Assembly: GCA_024860865.1 (NCBI GenBank)
Contig: JACRDV010000143.1
Coordinates: 1-6,667 of the forward strand
Length of the DNA: 6,667 nt
DNA from: JACRDV01 sp024860865 [NCBI: Methanobacteriota archaeon]
GTDB lineage: Archaea > JACRDV01
Direction: 5' to 3'
The translations under genes and the position numbers were made by a program. Shown one piece after another: positions 3,078 through 6,667 of this stretch (position 1 is its first letter; every line of letters begins with the position of its first letter). Under the pieces are notes generated by a model. The model was given only the letters and a program-made list of their open reading frames with translations, did no database searches and was not told where the DNA came from.

Positions 3078-3623
3078 TTGAAAGAGATTCGATTTCATGG
3101 GCGCGGCGGGCAAGGAGTCGTAACCGCTGCTGAAATTCTAGCTGCTGCAGCTTTTAAAAATGGGAAGTATGCGCAAGCATTTCCTTATTTTGGACCGGAA
3201 AGGCGCGGAGCTCCAACAACTGCTTTTACAAGGATAGATGATAAGCCCATTCGCACCCGTTCTCAAGTTAAAAAACCAGACTATGTTGTTGTTCAAGATT
3301 CTTCTCTTTTTGATGTTGTAGATGTATTAGATGGTTTAAAAAACGATGGTTTAGTTTTAATCAATAGTAATAAATCACCTAAAGATTTCAAAGTTAAAAA
3401 TGCTAAAGTTTATGCTATTGATGCTACTTCACTTGCTGAAAAAATTTTACACGCTCCTTTTGTCAATACAATAATACTTGGAGCTCTTGCTGCTGTAACA
3501 AATGAGGTAACTCTTGAATCAATTAAAGCCGCAGTAAAAGAAAGGCTCGCGGGCAAAGCTGTTGAAGGCAACATTAGAGCAGTAGAAGAAGCATATAAAT
3601 TAATGAAGGGAAGCATTGAATAG
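3078..3623 (+). CDS. porG: pyruvate/2-oxoacid oxidoreductase gamma subunit
   Basis: Gamma subunit of the archaeal four-part 2-oxoacid:acceptor oxidoreductase, a cytoplasmic enzyme that oxidatively decarboxylates pyruvate (or another 2-oxoacid) with CoA to acyl-CoA and CO2. The 181-residue protein has the family's glycine-rich opening FHGRGGQGVVTAAEIL (about 6-21), FGPERRGAP (about 39-47) and the PDYVVVQD segment (about 68-75), and its length is normal for a free-standing PorG. The start is TTG at 3078: no ATG fits, and GAGGGG at 3067-3072 is a good Shine-Dalgarno with a 5-base gap. It is first in the operon, and its last 8 bases overlap porD. The substrate is called pyruvate mainly from the PorA and PorB sequences; a branched-chain 2-oxoacid is less likely. 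Confidence 0.95.
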   Translation: MKEIRFHGRGGQGVVTAAEILAAAAFKNGKYAQAFPYFGPERRGAPTTAFTRIDDKPIRTRSQVKKPDYVVVQDSSLFDVVDVLDGLKNDGLVLINSNKSPKDFKVKNAKVYAIDATSLAEKILHAPFVNTIILGALAAVTNEVTLESIKAAVKERLAGKAVEGNIRAVEEAYKLMKGSIE

Positions 3624-3891
3624 CATGCGCGAGTTAACAATAGGAGCCGTAATCAAAAAGCCAGGATCTTCTCGCAGAAATAAAACAGGGACGTGGAGAA
3701 ATCTAAAGCCAGTTATCGATATTGACAAATGTCTCCAATGTGATAACTGTCAACTTTTTTGTCCAGAAGGTATTATTAAGAAAGCAAAAAAGGGCATGGA
3801 AATCGATTATGATTACTGCAAGGGATGTGGAATCTGTGCAAATGAATGCCCAACCAGAGCAATCCAAATGGTTAAAGAGGGGATTGATTGA
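3616..3891 (+). CDS. porD: pyruvate/2-oxoacid oxidoreductase delta subunit, 2x[4Fe-4S] ferredoxin
   Basis: Small electron-transfer subunit of 91 residues. Two classic cluster motifs are intact: C39-x2-C42-x2-C45-x3-C49-P and C68-x2-C71-x2-C74-x3-C78-P, each expected to bind one [4Fe-4S] cluster. In the family these carry electrons from the TPP/PorB site outward. The N-terminal 30 residues with KPGSSRRNKTGTWR are the typical PorD lead-in. Two starts are possible. TTG at 3616 overlaps the porG stop by 8 bases and has GAAGGG at 3604-3609 at good spacing. ATG at 3625 has that site too far away and would shorten the protein by three residues. I prefer TTG. Its stop overlaps the porA start by four bases, so translation is probably coupled. 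Confidence 0.95.
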   Translation: MNSMRELTIGAVIKKPGSSRRNKTGTWRNLKPVIDIDKCLQCDNCQLFCPEGIIKKAKKGMEIDYDYCKGCGICANECPTRAIQMVKEGID

Positions 3892-5060
3892 GCAAAAAAG
3901 TCGTAATTCATGGCTCACGGGCAGTAGCAGAAGCGGCAAAACTAGCTAAGGTAAATGTAATTTCCGCATACCCAATCACACCTCAAACTCACATAGTTGC
4001 AGATCTAGCTGAAATGATTGCAAACGGTGAGCTTAAGGCAGAATATATTCGAGCAGAATCAGAACACTCTGCAATCTCAGCTTGCATCGGAGCTTCAGCT
4101 GTTGGAGTTAGAACTTTTACTTCTACATCATCTCAAGGGATTGCACTCATGCATGAGGTTTTATTTATCGCTTCTGGGCTTAGACTTCCGATTGTAATGT
4201 CAGTTGCTAATCGTGCCATATCTGCCCCACTTAACATATGGTGTGATCACCAAGATTCTATTTCACAACGCGATACTGGCTGGATTCAGTTATACATAGA
4301 GGATAACCAAGAAGCGCTTGATACAACTTTACAAGCTTTTAAAATTTCTGAAAATTCAGAAGTATTGTTACCAACAATGGTCTGTATGGATGGATTTATT
4401 TTAACTCATACTGTTGAACCAGTTGAAATACCAGATCAATCGTTAGCAGACCAATTCTTGCCGAAGTATAAGGCGCAAATTTCCTTAGACCCAAAAATAC
4501 CGAGCACATTTGGAGCATATGCTGATCCTGAGTGGTATATGGAATTTAGGTACATGCAGAATGAAGCAATGGAGCGAGCGAAAAAAGCAATCCTAGATGT
4601 GGACAATCAATTCAAAAAAATTTTCAATCGAAGTTATGGCGGATTAATTTCTGAATATAAGTGCAATGACGCAGAGGTAATATTTATTGCAATGGGTTCT
4701 GTTGTAGGGACGATAAAAGAGGTCATCGATAGATTTAGGGCAAATGGTATTAAAGTCGGTGTTTTAAAAGTTAGATCATTTAGACCATTTCCAAAAGAAG
4801 AAATAAAAAAAGCCGTCTCAAATGCAAAGGTTTTGGCTGTTGTTGAGCGTTCTCTATCTATCGGTTCTGATAGCCCATTGTATGCGGAAGTTAAAAACAC
4901 AGTTGGTCCTGAACTTAAAACAATCTGTTTTGTGGCTGGACTTGGTGGAAGAGATATCACTGAATTAGATATTGAAGAAATAATTAAGAGAGCATATAAT
5001 GCGATAAAAACTGGCAAAATTGAACGAGAAGTTGAATGGATTGGATTGAGGTTAAAGTAA
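3888..5060 (+). CDS. porA: pyruvate/2-oxoacid oxidoreductase alpha subunit
   Basis: Alpha subunit (390 residues, normal length), which together with PorB forms the TPP active site. Recognisable segments are SAYPITPQT (26-34), [16 protein letters not shown] (from 55; the Glu/Ser/His region that contacts TPP in the family), [13 protein letters not shown], and the long signature [17 protein letters not shown] followed by RDTGWIQLY, typical of pyruvate-type enzymes. The C-terminal part (about 260-390) is the transketolase C-terminal-like domain, with [14 protein letters not shown] and [13 protein letters not shown]. The start is TTG at 3888 inside the TTGA overlap with porD; AGAGGGG lies 5 bases upstream. 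The TAA stop shares one base with the ATG of the next frame. No defect is seen. Confidence 0.96.
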
Positions 5061-6667
5061 TGAAGCTTGGTTTTGTAGGCACCGGTTGCCAAGTGCAAGG
5101 AATTAAAAAATTGCAAGCATGCTCTAAGATGATTGATTTGCTTTCAAGTCAATTTACTTGGCCAGAACAAATCAAATTTACCATTGGTTTATTCTGTTAT
5201 GAAAATTTTCCATATGAATACTTAAAATCTTTTCTTGAAAAACGTGGAGTTAAATTGGAAGACATAAATAAAATGTATATCAAAGGAAGACACTTCTGGG
5301 TTATCCTAAAAAGCGGAAAAACAATTCAGCTTTCCCTTGATGAGTTGAAATCGATTGCTCGCACTAGCTGTAAATTTTGCCCAGATTTTTCGGCTGAGTT
5401 AGCTGATATTTCAATTGGATCAATAGGTTCGCCCTCAGGTTGGTCAACTGTATTAATTCGAAATGAAGTTGGTGAAAAAATTTTTAATAAGGCTCTAGAG
5501 CTAGGCTATATTGAAGCAAACGAAATCACTGATCCAAAATCAAGGCTTAAAGTTGAAAGATTAGCATTAAAAAAGAAAAAAGAAAGCATTTCTACAATTA
5601 ATAAATTCAAGCCTGTATCTGCTAAAAAATTTGAATTACCTCCAAAGGAAAGCCCGTCTAATTTTGATAAATTAGTTAAATCAGTAGTGGACGCTGATTT
5701 ATGCACGCTCTGTGGAACATGCATTTCGGCTTGCCCAGCTAATATCATTCGTATGGAAAATGAAAAATTGAAGTTAATTGGCGAATGCCAAGTTGGATGC
5801 AGTGCATGTTTTGTCTCTTGTCCAAGAACTGGGTTGCCGGATGAGCTAAAAATATCCGTTAAAGAACCCTTAGGTAGATACATAAAATGTTACTCAGCTA
5901 GGGCTAAAGATGAAAAAATCTTGAAACGTAGCCAAGATGGTGGAGTTGCAACAGCAATTTTAGCTGCTGCACTTGATGCAGAGCTCATTGATGGTGCTGT
6001 AGTTAGTTCCACTGAAATAACTGAACCATGGAAACCCTTCCCAAAGATAGCAACTAATTTCGAGGAATTGTTAGCAGCTGCTGGTTCTCGTTATTCTTTT
6101 TCACCAAACGTCTCGTTAGTAAAAGAAGCGAAGCCAAAAATATTTGAAAAGGAGCTATTCGCCCCGGGACATAGAGCTTGCGCTGGATGTGGAGGAGTTC
6201 TCGCGATTCGACATGGATTAAAGGCACTTGGGAAAAATGTTATTGCAGTTAGTCCAACCGGCTGTATGGAAGTGGTCTCAAGCCCATATCCTGAAACTGC
6301 TTGGGAAGTCCCATGGATTCACGTAGCTTTTGAAAATTCAGCTGCAGTTGCTTCTGGTATCGAAGCTGCTCTCAAAGTTTTAGGCAAAAAAGAAAATATA
6401 AATGTTGTATGTTTTTCTGGAGACGGTGGTACGGTCGATATAGGTTTTCAAGCTCTGTCTGGAGCTGCAGAGCGGGCTCACAATTTCATTTATGTCTGCT
6501 ATGATAATGAAGCTTACATGAATACAGGCATTCAAAGAAGTGGAGCAACTCCATATGGGGCCAGAACAACGACTTCTCCACCCGGTAAATTCAGCATTGG
6601 AAATGAAAGACCTAAAAAAGATATGGTAATGATCATGGCTGCGCATGAAGTGCCTTATGTAGCTACA
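5060..6667 (+). CDS. porB: order-swapped FrhB-type flavoprotein fused to pyruvate oxidoreductase beta subunit (3' end cut by window)
   Basis: 536 codons are present with no stop before the right edge. ATG 5060 overlaps the porA stop (TAATG) and has GAGGT at 5048-5052. Residues 1 to about 172 match the C-terminal half of FrhB/FdhB proteins: FVGTGCQ with C10, [10 protein letters not shown]104-x2-C107, then [14 protein letters not shown]. Residues 215-254 bind two clusters: C215/C218/C221/C225 and C243/C247/C250/C254. Residues 271-357 match the N-terminal half ([27 protein letters not shown]). From 362 it is Por[13 protein letters not shown] with C374 and C377, [11 protein letters not shown]/Mg site GDGGT at 454-458, then DNEAYMNTG; roughly 100-120 residues are missing. 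The usual FrhB order is N half then C half, so the halves are swapped. PorB should complete the enzyme with PorGDA. The FrhB part predicts FAD and possibly F420 as electron acceptor, which is inference. No stop or convincing restart separates the parts. Confidence 0.93.

Follow-up and report, generated by a model that had tools for sequence, protein, structure and literature searches.

A rearranged FrhB flavin module on PorB suggests a possible direct link of pyruvate metabolism to F420

In textbooks, pyruvate:acceptor oxidoreductase (POR), the gate enzyme between acetyl-CoA and pyruvate, is coupled to ferredoxin. An F420 dependence once reported for crude methanogen extracts was later ascribed to secondary reduction by ferredoxin (PMC9012536; this and the other papers below are cited from parts of their text). 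The FrhB6 or 'Pfor' paralogues of ANME-1, which like the module described here lie within a por cluster, have been proposed to let pyruvate oxidation feed the reduction of F420 (Chadwick et al. 2022, PMC9012536). We take this group to be represented by the por loci of Methanophagales and other lineages, where FrhB, unlike that of our host, is of canonical order and encoded separately after porB. In Ca. Ethanoperedens, an F420-reducing CODH (zeta subunit, PDB 8RIU) and Fwd (PDB 8RJA) reduce F420 (PMC11493965), and both resemble the host in placing an FrhB-type F420 reductase module on a CO2-forming C1 enzyme; the CODH subunit likewise has a two-cluster ferredoxin domain, there N-terminal. Unlike in the host, these modules are separate subunits of other enzymes, and the CODH subunit has the order ferredoxin (Fer4), N-half, C-half; the word 'pyruvate' is absent from the main text of that paper.

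Two further systems share either the covalent joining or the rearrangement. Fsr (PDB 7NP8, 7NPA), as partly described in print, has an FrhB/FpoF-type module covalently joined to the catalytic part of a different enzyme, as the host does. Its catalytic partner, unlike the host's, is a sulfite reductase, and the match to the C-half falls at residues 152-320 of the chain. We take the Fsr module to be in canonical order. The F420-dependent glutamate synthase subunit, in contrast, is already known to be permuted: in ADL58239 of Methanobacteriales the N-terminal 182 residues resemble the FrhB C-terminus and the C-terminal 83 the FrhB N-terminus, as in the host (Mills et al. 2013, PMC3591093, Fig. 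9 legend). Loci of this kind (L046, L047 and others) differ from the host in that the partner is glutamate synthase and the subunit, in the loci seen, is unfused; the host operon has no Glu_synthase, GXGXG or GATase genes, and por genes stand there instead.

The window analysed here, a stretch of 6,667 nt from an uncultured archaeon, carries a por operon on the plus strand, in which porG, porD and porA were confirmed upstream of the fused gene, as the first-pass annotation had claimed. The gamma subunit gene porG (3078..3623) matches Pfam POR at 4.8e-47 and lies above cut-off for TIGR02175 and PRK08534; porD (3616..3891, alternative start ATG 3625) encodes the 2x[4Fe-4S] delta subunit (NF040684 PorD_Arch, 132.9 bits, cut-off 120); and porA (3888..5060) encodes the alpha subunit (NF040682 PorA_Arch, 588.2 bits, cut-off 550). 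The order porG-D-A-B is the usual one, with FrhB inserted ahead of porB. ARAGORN found no tRNA in the window.

The fused gene (5060..6667, plus strand) remains open at the contig end. Its start codon, the ATG at 5060, shares bases with the stop of porA (TAATG), and a Shine-Dalgarno-like GAGGT (5048..5052) precedes it by 7 nt; an upstream in-frame ATG at 5036 would give a product of 544 aa. Within the 536-aa product, Pfam finds four parts in a single frame. These are an FrhB C-half (residues 2-158, 5063..5533; FrhB_FdhB_C, PF04432, 6.8e-47, and alignment), a two-cluster ferredoxin domain (residues 209-257, 5684..5830; Pfam Fer4-type domains, with cysteines C215, C218, C221, C225, C243, C247, C250 and C254), an FrhB N-half (residues 277-355, 5888..6124; FrhB_FdhB_N, PF04422, 8.8e-26) and, after the junction EAKPKI (residues 356-361, 6125..6142), the N-terminal 175 residues of PorB (6143..6667), the subunit of TPP and one [4Fe-4S], with its TPP-binding domain (TPP_enzyme_C, PF02775, residues 400-535, 1.8e-18). 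The TPP motif is presumably the stretch that begins GDGGTVD. PorB is the best family model for the C-terminal part: PRK11865 matches residues 357-536 at 302.7 bits, below a cut-off of 405 that is meant for a whole PorB, with 178 of 300 model positions available here. Because the contig ends at 6667 inside the frame, roughly the last 40% of PorB, with its last cluster ligand, lies beyond the data. The domain order and the clean break between the two FrhB halves, both proposed in the first-pass annotation, are borne out by these matches.

All 12 cluster cysteines of the permuted module are present, four in the FrhB part and eight in the ferredoxin domain, for a total of 3x[4Fe-4S]. C10, C46, C104 and C107 align with the [4Fe-4S] ligands Cys104, Cys134, Cys192 and Cys195 of M. 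marburgensis FrhB (PMC3591093). Alignment to FrhB also places QDGG (residues 292-295) at the start of the FAD-contact helix and Ser121-Ile122, at the putative F420-binding site, opposite FrhB Ser209-Val210. The module is predicted as a single compact fold (pLDDT 90.9, pTM 0.91), and an AlphaFold model of all 536 aa gives the partial PorB at low confidence. The C-half superimposes on the F420-reducing hydrogenase 9r51_B (Z 15.1, 1.9 A, 183 aligned) and on the F420-reducing CODH 8riu_B (Z 14.4, 1.2 A, 175 aligned); these VIA-align and best Foldseek matches to FrhB chains cover the C-half only, as sequential aligners tend to do with permuted chains.

The permutation is real, but it is not peculiar to the fused protein. 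The order C-half, Fer4, N-half runs as a single HSP through all three parts in 38 of 393 other archaeal genomes (50 of 394 genomes matched at E <= 1e-38, less the host and 11 with a C-half only), which, together with the published case (PMC3591093), rules out a freak of this one protein; the permuted order itself is not new. We infer that the arrangement is more aptly seen as an FpoF-type chain of the order Fer4-N-C that has been circularly permuted. The fusion to PorB, on the other hand, was not seen among the 393 other archaeal genomes and their loci. At a threshold of 1e-45 the only match among 392 genomes of the phylum of G007 was G007 itself, and 11 of 72,556 plasmid records matched the fused protein, none across more than 80% of the query; one scan of relatives took 80 of 532 and may have omitted records of the host genome. 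The fusion is known from one genome, the sole member of its phylum examined. Separate FrhB and porB genes, named beforehand as a finding that would count against the fusion, do occur in relatives with permuted FrhB, and we read this as a fusion particular to the host lineage.

FrhB stands beside por in three arrangements: permuted and upstream of porG, canonical and after porB, or fused as in the host. The first, which shares one operon with POR as the host module does but is a separate gene, immediately precedes porG and occurs in 15 genomes (Hydrothermarchaeota and others; for example L103, L120, L102, L053, L096, L108, L109 and L128). The second was found in five loci (L139, L145, L154 and L157, with a shorter FrhB in L135). 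A Cys-rich N-terminal extension of PorB was present in 14 of 14 readable por operons with permuted FrhB versus 0 of 23 other PorBs, counts that merge 19 rows into 14 genomes and 27 into 23 and that omit PorB frames without the core motif of our script (e.g. L030, L032-L035, L037, L038). Fourteen of the 23 negatives are known only from loci of about 3.5 kb, and their genomes gave no C-Fer4-N match at E <= 1e-30. The extension sits where FrhB is fused in the host protein, whose PorB lacks it and is preceded by FrhB itself. The cysteines of ferredoxin cluster II are lost in 9 or 10 of 15 POR-linked permuted FrhBs. Apparently new here are the FrhB-PorB fusion, the permuted FrhB upstream of porG and the Cys-rich PorB extension.

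Phylogenetic trees differ on whether the permuted order arose by one permutation or by several. In a tree of 72 of 109 rows, from which near-duplicates and a few long branches were omitted and on which the p-AU tests were run, all 38 permuted rows fall on one side of a branch (43/86), and in a quick tree of all 109 rows the host protein, L129 and L130 lie outside the other 60 permuted rows (SH-aLRT 94). Forcing the host into one clade with the permuted FrhBs of por operons lowers lnL by 22.5 (p-AU 0.0526), and in the best trees those proteins occupy a different branch; we therefore do not favour the host protein as simply a member of their clade, as far as sequence trees can tell. A clade with the canonical por-linked FrhBs (p-AU 0.0989) is absent from the free tree, and one with the permuted glutamate synthase subunits gives p-AU 0.353.

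We consider it somewhat probable that the complex is a POR into which an F420 port has been built. Electrons would pass from the TPP of PorB through the clusters of PorB and PorD to the two ferredoxin clusters, then to the FrhB-part cluster and FAD, which would exchange hydride with F420. The retained PorD may still serve ferredoxin, and the enzyme may have two ports. From the potentials, following an argument in PMC9012536, the F420 branch would run as pyruvate + CoA + F420 -> acetyl-CoA + CO2 + F420H2. The fusion would make covalent a contact that is probably formed elsewhere by a separate permuted FrhB and the Cys-rich extension. The link to F420, suggested in the first-pass annotation, gains from the domain content, complete cluster cysteines and predicted fold of the module, from the repeated association of FrhB with POR, from the distribution of the extension, from this being the one PorB detected in the host genome at E <= 1e-30, from the Cof, Mtd and CdhA genes of the host and from the solved CODH and Fwd; it is weakened by the failure to find CofD and CofE. 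To our knowledge, the POR of M. barkeri is not FrhB-linked. The purified M. barkeri enzyme, as told in PMC9012536, did not use F420, which speaks against such a port.

The strongest rival, though an unlikely one, is that the acceptor of the FrhB-type module is something other than F420, either a ferredoxin or a different partner. The FrhB fold is also at work without F420, as in plant HCAR, and HCAR 5dqr_D shares the fold of the module (Z 10.0). The F420-phosphate loop GKGK of FrhB is KGRH (residues 75-78) in the fused protein, and the FAD-contacting Lys75-Tyr76 loop of FrhB is RY (344-345), with Lys replaced here by Arg and, for 14 of the 15 permuted relatives linked to POR, by Leu, Ile or Val. 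Neither CofD nor CofE was found in the host genome (listed completeness 92.45%), which at first suggested that F420 is absent; this was weakened by CofG (454 bits), CofH (516) and CofC (162), each above its NCBIfam cut-off, and by an F420-dependent Mtd (420 bits). CofE occurs in 14 of 16 genomes tested and is missing only from the host and the 91%-complete G145, so its dropout from the MAG is plausible. With CofD and CofE not found, we grade F420 in the host, from its genes, as probable.

It is rather less likely still that the enzyme is mainly a ferredoxin-dependent pyruvate synthase, in reverse or dual use, in which the FrhB arm would act as a side port or as a redox valve; this reading partly overlaps with the F420 port. 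PorD retains both cluster motifs, CdhA and Mtd in the genome indicate an archaeal Wood-Ljungdahl context, and a search at E <= 1e-30 found no second PorB there. If a CdhA-bearing archaeon has this POR alone, it may depend on it to make pyruvate, which counts against the F420 port in that F420H2 by itself cannot achieve such synthesis. Against the reading as a pyruvate synthase stand the potentials: F420H2, at about -340 mV, is too weak a reductant for reductive carboxylation at about -500 mV unless a further donor of low potential takes part (PMC9012536).

An artefact, in which adjacent FrhB and porB genes were joined by sequencing or assembly errors, is very improbable. In its favour, the junction sits about 540 bp short of where the MAG contig ends, and the two genes are separate in relatives. 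Against this, the frame has no in-frame stop from 5060 to 6667 and no in-frame ATG, GTG or TTG across residues 337-403, so that at least two base errors would have to be assumed; PorB keeps its usual N-terminal residues behind a short linker. GC3 is constant (porA 0.267, FrhB part 0.261, PorB part 0.274), and we read the higher overall GC of the PorB part (0.434, against 0.364 and 0.381 for porA and the FrhB part) as conserved-protein composition because GC3 is unchanged. Given also the usual porG-D-A-B order, the join artefact was in the main rejected, and the fusion in one frame, as first annotated, is confirmed as real.

Flavin-based bifurcation or confurcation, the alternative raised in the first-pass annotation, in which F420 and ferredoxin would each take a share of the pyruvate electrons, either at the FAD of the FrhB part or via an HdrA-type partner, is the least probable reading: the cluster number and a possible second ferredoxin port would permit it, and HdrA-like genes adjoin canonical FrhBs on other host contigs, but the fused protein has by sequence one FrhB-type FAD site, such an FAD simply hands electrons to F420 or takes them from it in the parts cited of PMC3591093, PMC11493965 and the Fsr literature, and no HdrA, Etf or Nfn gene lies in the visible por operon, where the contig ends within porB, and it is kept as a faint rival because an HdrA-like gene (658 aa) follows porB by 22 bp on the same strand in an Archaeoglobaceae MAG (L128; also L053).

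The covalent form matters, as with an FrhB-PorB chain a direct F420 link becomes testable on a single purified complex, and FrhB paralogues placed near POR only by gene clustering gain a concrete meaning. Through the permutation the N-half ends at the C-terminus of the module, where its last residue is free for joining to PorB, and the permuted module appears to be used as an interchangeable electron plug. A bolder proposal, which we hold only tentatively, is a dedicated class of pyruvate:F420 oxidoreductases in which the PorB N-terminus docks a permuted F420 reductase, through the Cys-rich extension in Hydrothermarchaeota and others and through covalent fusion in the host lineage; in alkane- and methane-oxidising archaea a canonical FrhB after porB would have supplied the link. 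Were this true, separate recruitments of F420 reductases would have given rise to F420-coupled pyruvate oxidation. In either case, a rearranged flavin module on PorB suggests that F420 can be linked directly to pyruvate metabolism.

Bases 3078-6667 of the window carry porG (3078-3623), porD (3616-3891) and porA (3888-5060) on the forward strand, followed by one 536-codon open frame that runs off the contig end. Within this single frame, the Pfam domains run in the order FrhB_FdhB_C (residues 2-158), Fer4-type (inside 209-257), FrhB_FdhB_N (277-355) and TPP_enzyme_C (400-535), and NCBIfam assigns residues 357-536 to PorB. The first-pass annotation, which had read 5060-6667 as an FrhB with exchanged halves fused in frame to PorB, is thus borne out in both coordinates and domain order. 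The genes are tightly packed, with the ATG at 5060 overlapping the porA stop and GAGGT lying 7 nt upstream of that ATG. The window is one entire contig of a 1.54 Mb archaeal genome, listed as 92.45% complete, which is the only member of its phylum among the comparison genomes. The reverse strand, opposite the por genes, encodes a KaiC-type protein of 482 aa with two ATPase stretches (315-1763) and a tRNA gene that seems to carry an insert (2130-2232; Rfam RF00005, 37.6 bits across 103 nt) and is missing from the ARAGORN output. A second tRNA-like stretch was seen by eye on that strand at about 1921-2034, with no Rfam match at E <= 1.

Residues 337-403 contain zero stop codons and zero in-frame ATG, GTG or TTG codons, which leaves no place for a separate PorB start that would include its first cysteines. 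GC3 is equal on the FrhB and PorB sides of the junction, and PorB follows porA as it does in ordinary porGDAB operons (e.g., loci L056, L057, L060 and L061). Some 540 bases separate the junction from the end of the contig, and about 40% of PorB lies beyond it.

In an alignment with FrhB, residues 2-180 of the permuted module pair with positions 96-269, and residues 271-357 with positions 3-88. The cluster ligands of Methanothermobacter marburgensis FrhB (Cys104, 134, 192 and 195; PMC3591093) correspond to C10, C46, C104 and C107, and all eight cysteines of the ferredoxin part are kept. Modeled alone by AlphaFold with 37 permuted relatives, the module gave a pLDDT of 90.9 and a pTM of 0.91; superposition of its C-half gave Z 15.1 with FrhB 9r51_B (183 positions aligned, rmsd 1.9) and Z 14.4 with 8riu_B, the subunit of F420-reducing CODH (175 positions aligned, rmsd 1.2). 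Because the order is C-half, ferredoxin, N-half, we infer that the chain is the product of a circular permutation of an FpoF-type chain (ferredoxin, N-half, C-half).

This permutation is known and common, and is already in print in the Fig. 9 legend of Mills et al. (PMC3591093), which aligns the first 182 residues of an F420-dependent glutamate synthase subunit with the C-terminal part of FrhB and its last 83 residues with the N-terminal part. A 420-residue query matched the C-Fer4-N order in 38 of 393 other archaeal genomes, and only the window's own genome gave an unbroken match across the PorB junction; four further matches cross residue 365 but are interrupted by one to three stop codons apiece. 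Likewise, no open reading frame with both FrhB halves and PorB was found among the best 80 of 532 relatives kept from a peptide-pattern scan of genome contigs, or in the other loci examined. The mapped loci hold 109 distinct FrhB rows including the window (63 permuted, 46 canonical), and gene maps place the permuted module in glutamate synthase operons (GATase, GXGXG, permuted FrhB, Glu_synthase), immediately 5′ of porG, and, as a longer version (about 487 residues), elsewhere. The longer form (486-493 aa; L049:1570-3027, reverse strand; L050:7704-9182; L080:1414-2874; L099) occurs in Pyrohabitans and relatives, away from por and glt operons. It is extended at the C-terminus, and its N-terminus includes a stretch that by eye resembles the tail of a lost N-half, as would be expected if the permutation arose by tandem duplication and truncation.

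A permuted FrhB gene precedes porG, porD and porA on the same strand in 15 genomes, with porB also present where the locus is long enough, and overlaps porG by 4 bp in nine of them. These include six Hydrothermarchaeota (among them Pyrohabitans and Hydrothermarchaeum), four listed as "Euryarchaeota archaeon", three as "archaeon" and one Archaeoglobaceae. Among 392 genomes from the phylum of genome G007, G007 was the single match at E <= 1e-45, and the distribution of the por-linked permuted form in that phylum is therefore patchy. At five loci (L135, L139, L145, L154 and L157; Methanophagales, Methanosarcinales, Alkanophaga and Methanoxibalbensis), porB is instead followed downstream by a canonical FrhB; we take these to be the FrhB6 ("Pfor") group described by Chadwick et al. 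2022 (PMC9012536). The fusion in the window is a third arrangement. C215, C218, C221 and C254 are kept in all 15 por-linked permuted FrhBs; each cysteine of ferredoxin cluster II is gone from nine or ten of them (C225 and C243 kept in 6/15, C247 and C250 in 5/15; lost, e.g., in L051, L112, L090, L107 and L078), whereas the window retains all four.

It is possible that the FrhB module was recruited separately in the window's lineage. In FrhB trees built with the halves rearranged into one common order, a long branch sets the window's module apart. The 72-row tree puts all 38 permuted rows on one side of a branch with weak support (43/86), and constraining the window to join the glutamate synthase clade, the canonical por-linked clade or the por-linked permuted clade costs 5.5, 19.0 and 22.5 log units, respectively (p-AU 0.353, 0.0989 and 0.0526). 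A 109-row quick tree places the window and two others outside the remaining 60 permuted rows (SH-aLRT 94), a topology that would allow a separate permutation. The PorA+PorB tree also places the window outside the por operons bearing permuted FrhB (SH-aLRT 91).

The first-pass annotation made its F420 proposal dependent on F420 biosynthesis genes, and these were recovered in part: CofG (454 bits), CofH (516) and CofC (162) pass NCBIfam cut-offs, but CofD and CofE were not found in this 92.45% complete genome. Of 16 genomes tested for CofE, 14 have it, and the only one besides the window's genome to lack it is G145 (91% complete). The window's genome encodes Mtd (420 bits) and CdhA (1164 bits). 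F420 is probably present in the organism, and cofD and cofE probably dropped out of the assembly. CofG and CofC share a contig with methylenetetrahydrofolate-reductase-like and HdrA2-like genes, and CofH is on another (L175-L177 = contigs C4, C63 and C120 of this genome, G000). These loci also include MqnE (495.8 bits versus a cut-off of 434.6), which hints at menaquinone via the futalosine route. Further canonical FrhBs lie beside HdrA-like genes (L043, L044 and L045 = G000:C147, C55 and C67), and L043:7379-8449 (reverse strand) encodes a diverged FrhB_C protein.

Earlier work already covers the permutation, the proposal that FrhB couples to POR, F420-reducing C1 enzymes and, in Fsr, an FrhB module fused to a different enzyme. 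Searches of open-access papers turned up no report of PorB fused to FrhB, of por operons with permuted FrhB or of the PorB extension; the sole paper containing "FrhB", "PorB" and "fusion" (PMC11237513) concerns a PorA-PorB fusion and, in the relevant passages, names FrhB for Fsr only. The closest precedent for the mechanism comes from Ca. Ethanoperedens, whose CODH and Fwd complexes connect FrhB-type modules to enzymes that form CO2 and have been measured to reduce F420 (PMC11493965; 8RIU, 8RJA). The cofactor-binding sites are evident from sequence. By analogy, electrons would pass from TPP through the PorB cluster, the PorD clusters, the ferredoxin clusters of the fused module and the FrhB cluster to FAD and then F420. 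On the basis of potentials (about -500 mV versus about -340 mV), Chadwick et al. reason that an FrhB-POR link should run as pyruvate oxidation (PMC9012536). PorD may retain a ferredoxin port for pyruvate synthesis, since no second PorB was found in the genome at E <= 1e-30 (the two other matches were FrhB proteins). Flavin-based bifurcation with a bifurcating partner is very improbable, but is made slightly more likely by an HdrA-like gene (658 aa) that starts 22 bp after porB in the Archaeoglobaceae operon with permuted FrhB (L128:10987 onward = L053:4717-6693, reverse strand); the window's contig ends inside porB, upstream of whatever gene comes next.

A Cys-rich N-terminal extension of PorB of about 35 residues, C-x(2,3)-C-x(7,12)-C (e.g., SYVKCRHVCGASLAANRCFKFR), is present in all 14 genomes with permuted FrhB in the por operon and a readable PorB; 13 have the operon on one contig, and in G001 FrhB-porG-porD-porA and porB are split between two. 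Extended PorBs with the three conserved cysteines include L103:10048-11046, L120:10090-11061 and L053:6719-7690 (reverse strand). The other 23 PorBs all lack the extension, the five with a canonical FrhB downstream among them. Pfam scans of four extended PorBs and one without the extension gave no confident family for it, and a zinc-ribbon match in L053 reached only E 0.07, below the cut-off. In the window's PorB, the FrhB module itself occupies the place of the extension. The N-terminus of PorB would thus be the place where FrhB docks, and the fusion would have made that contact covalent.
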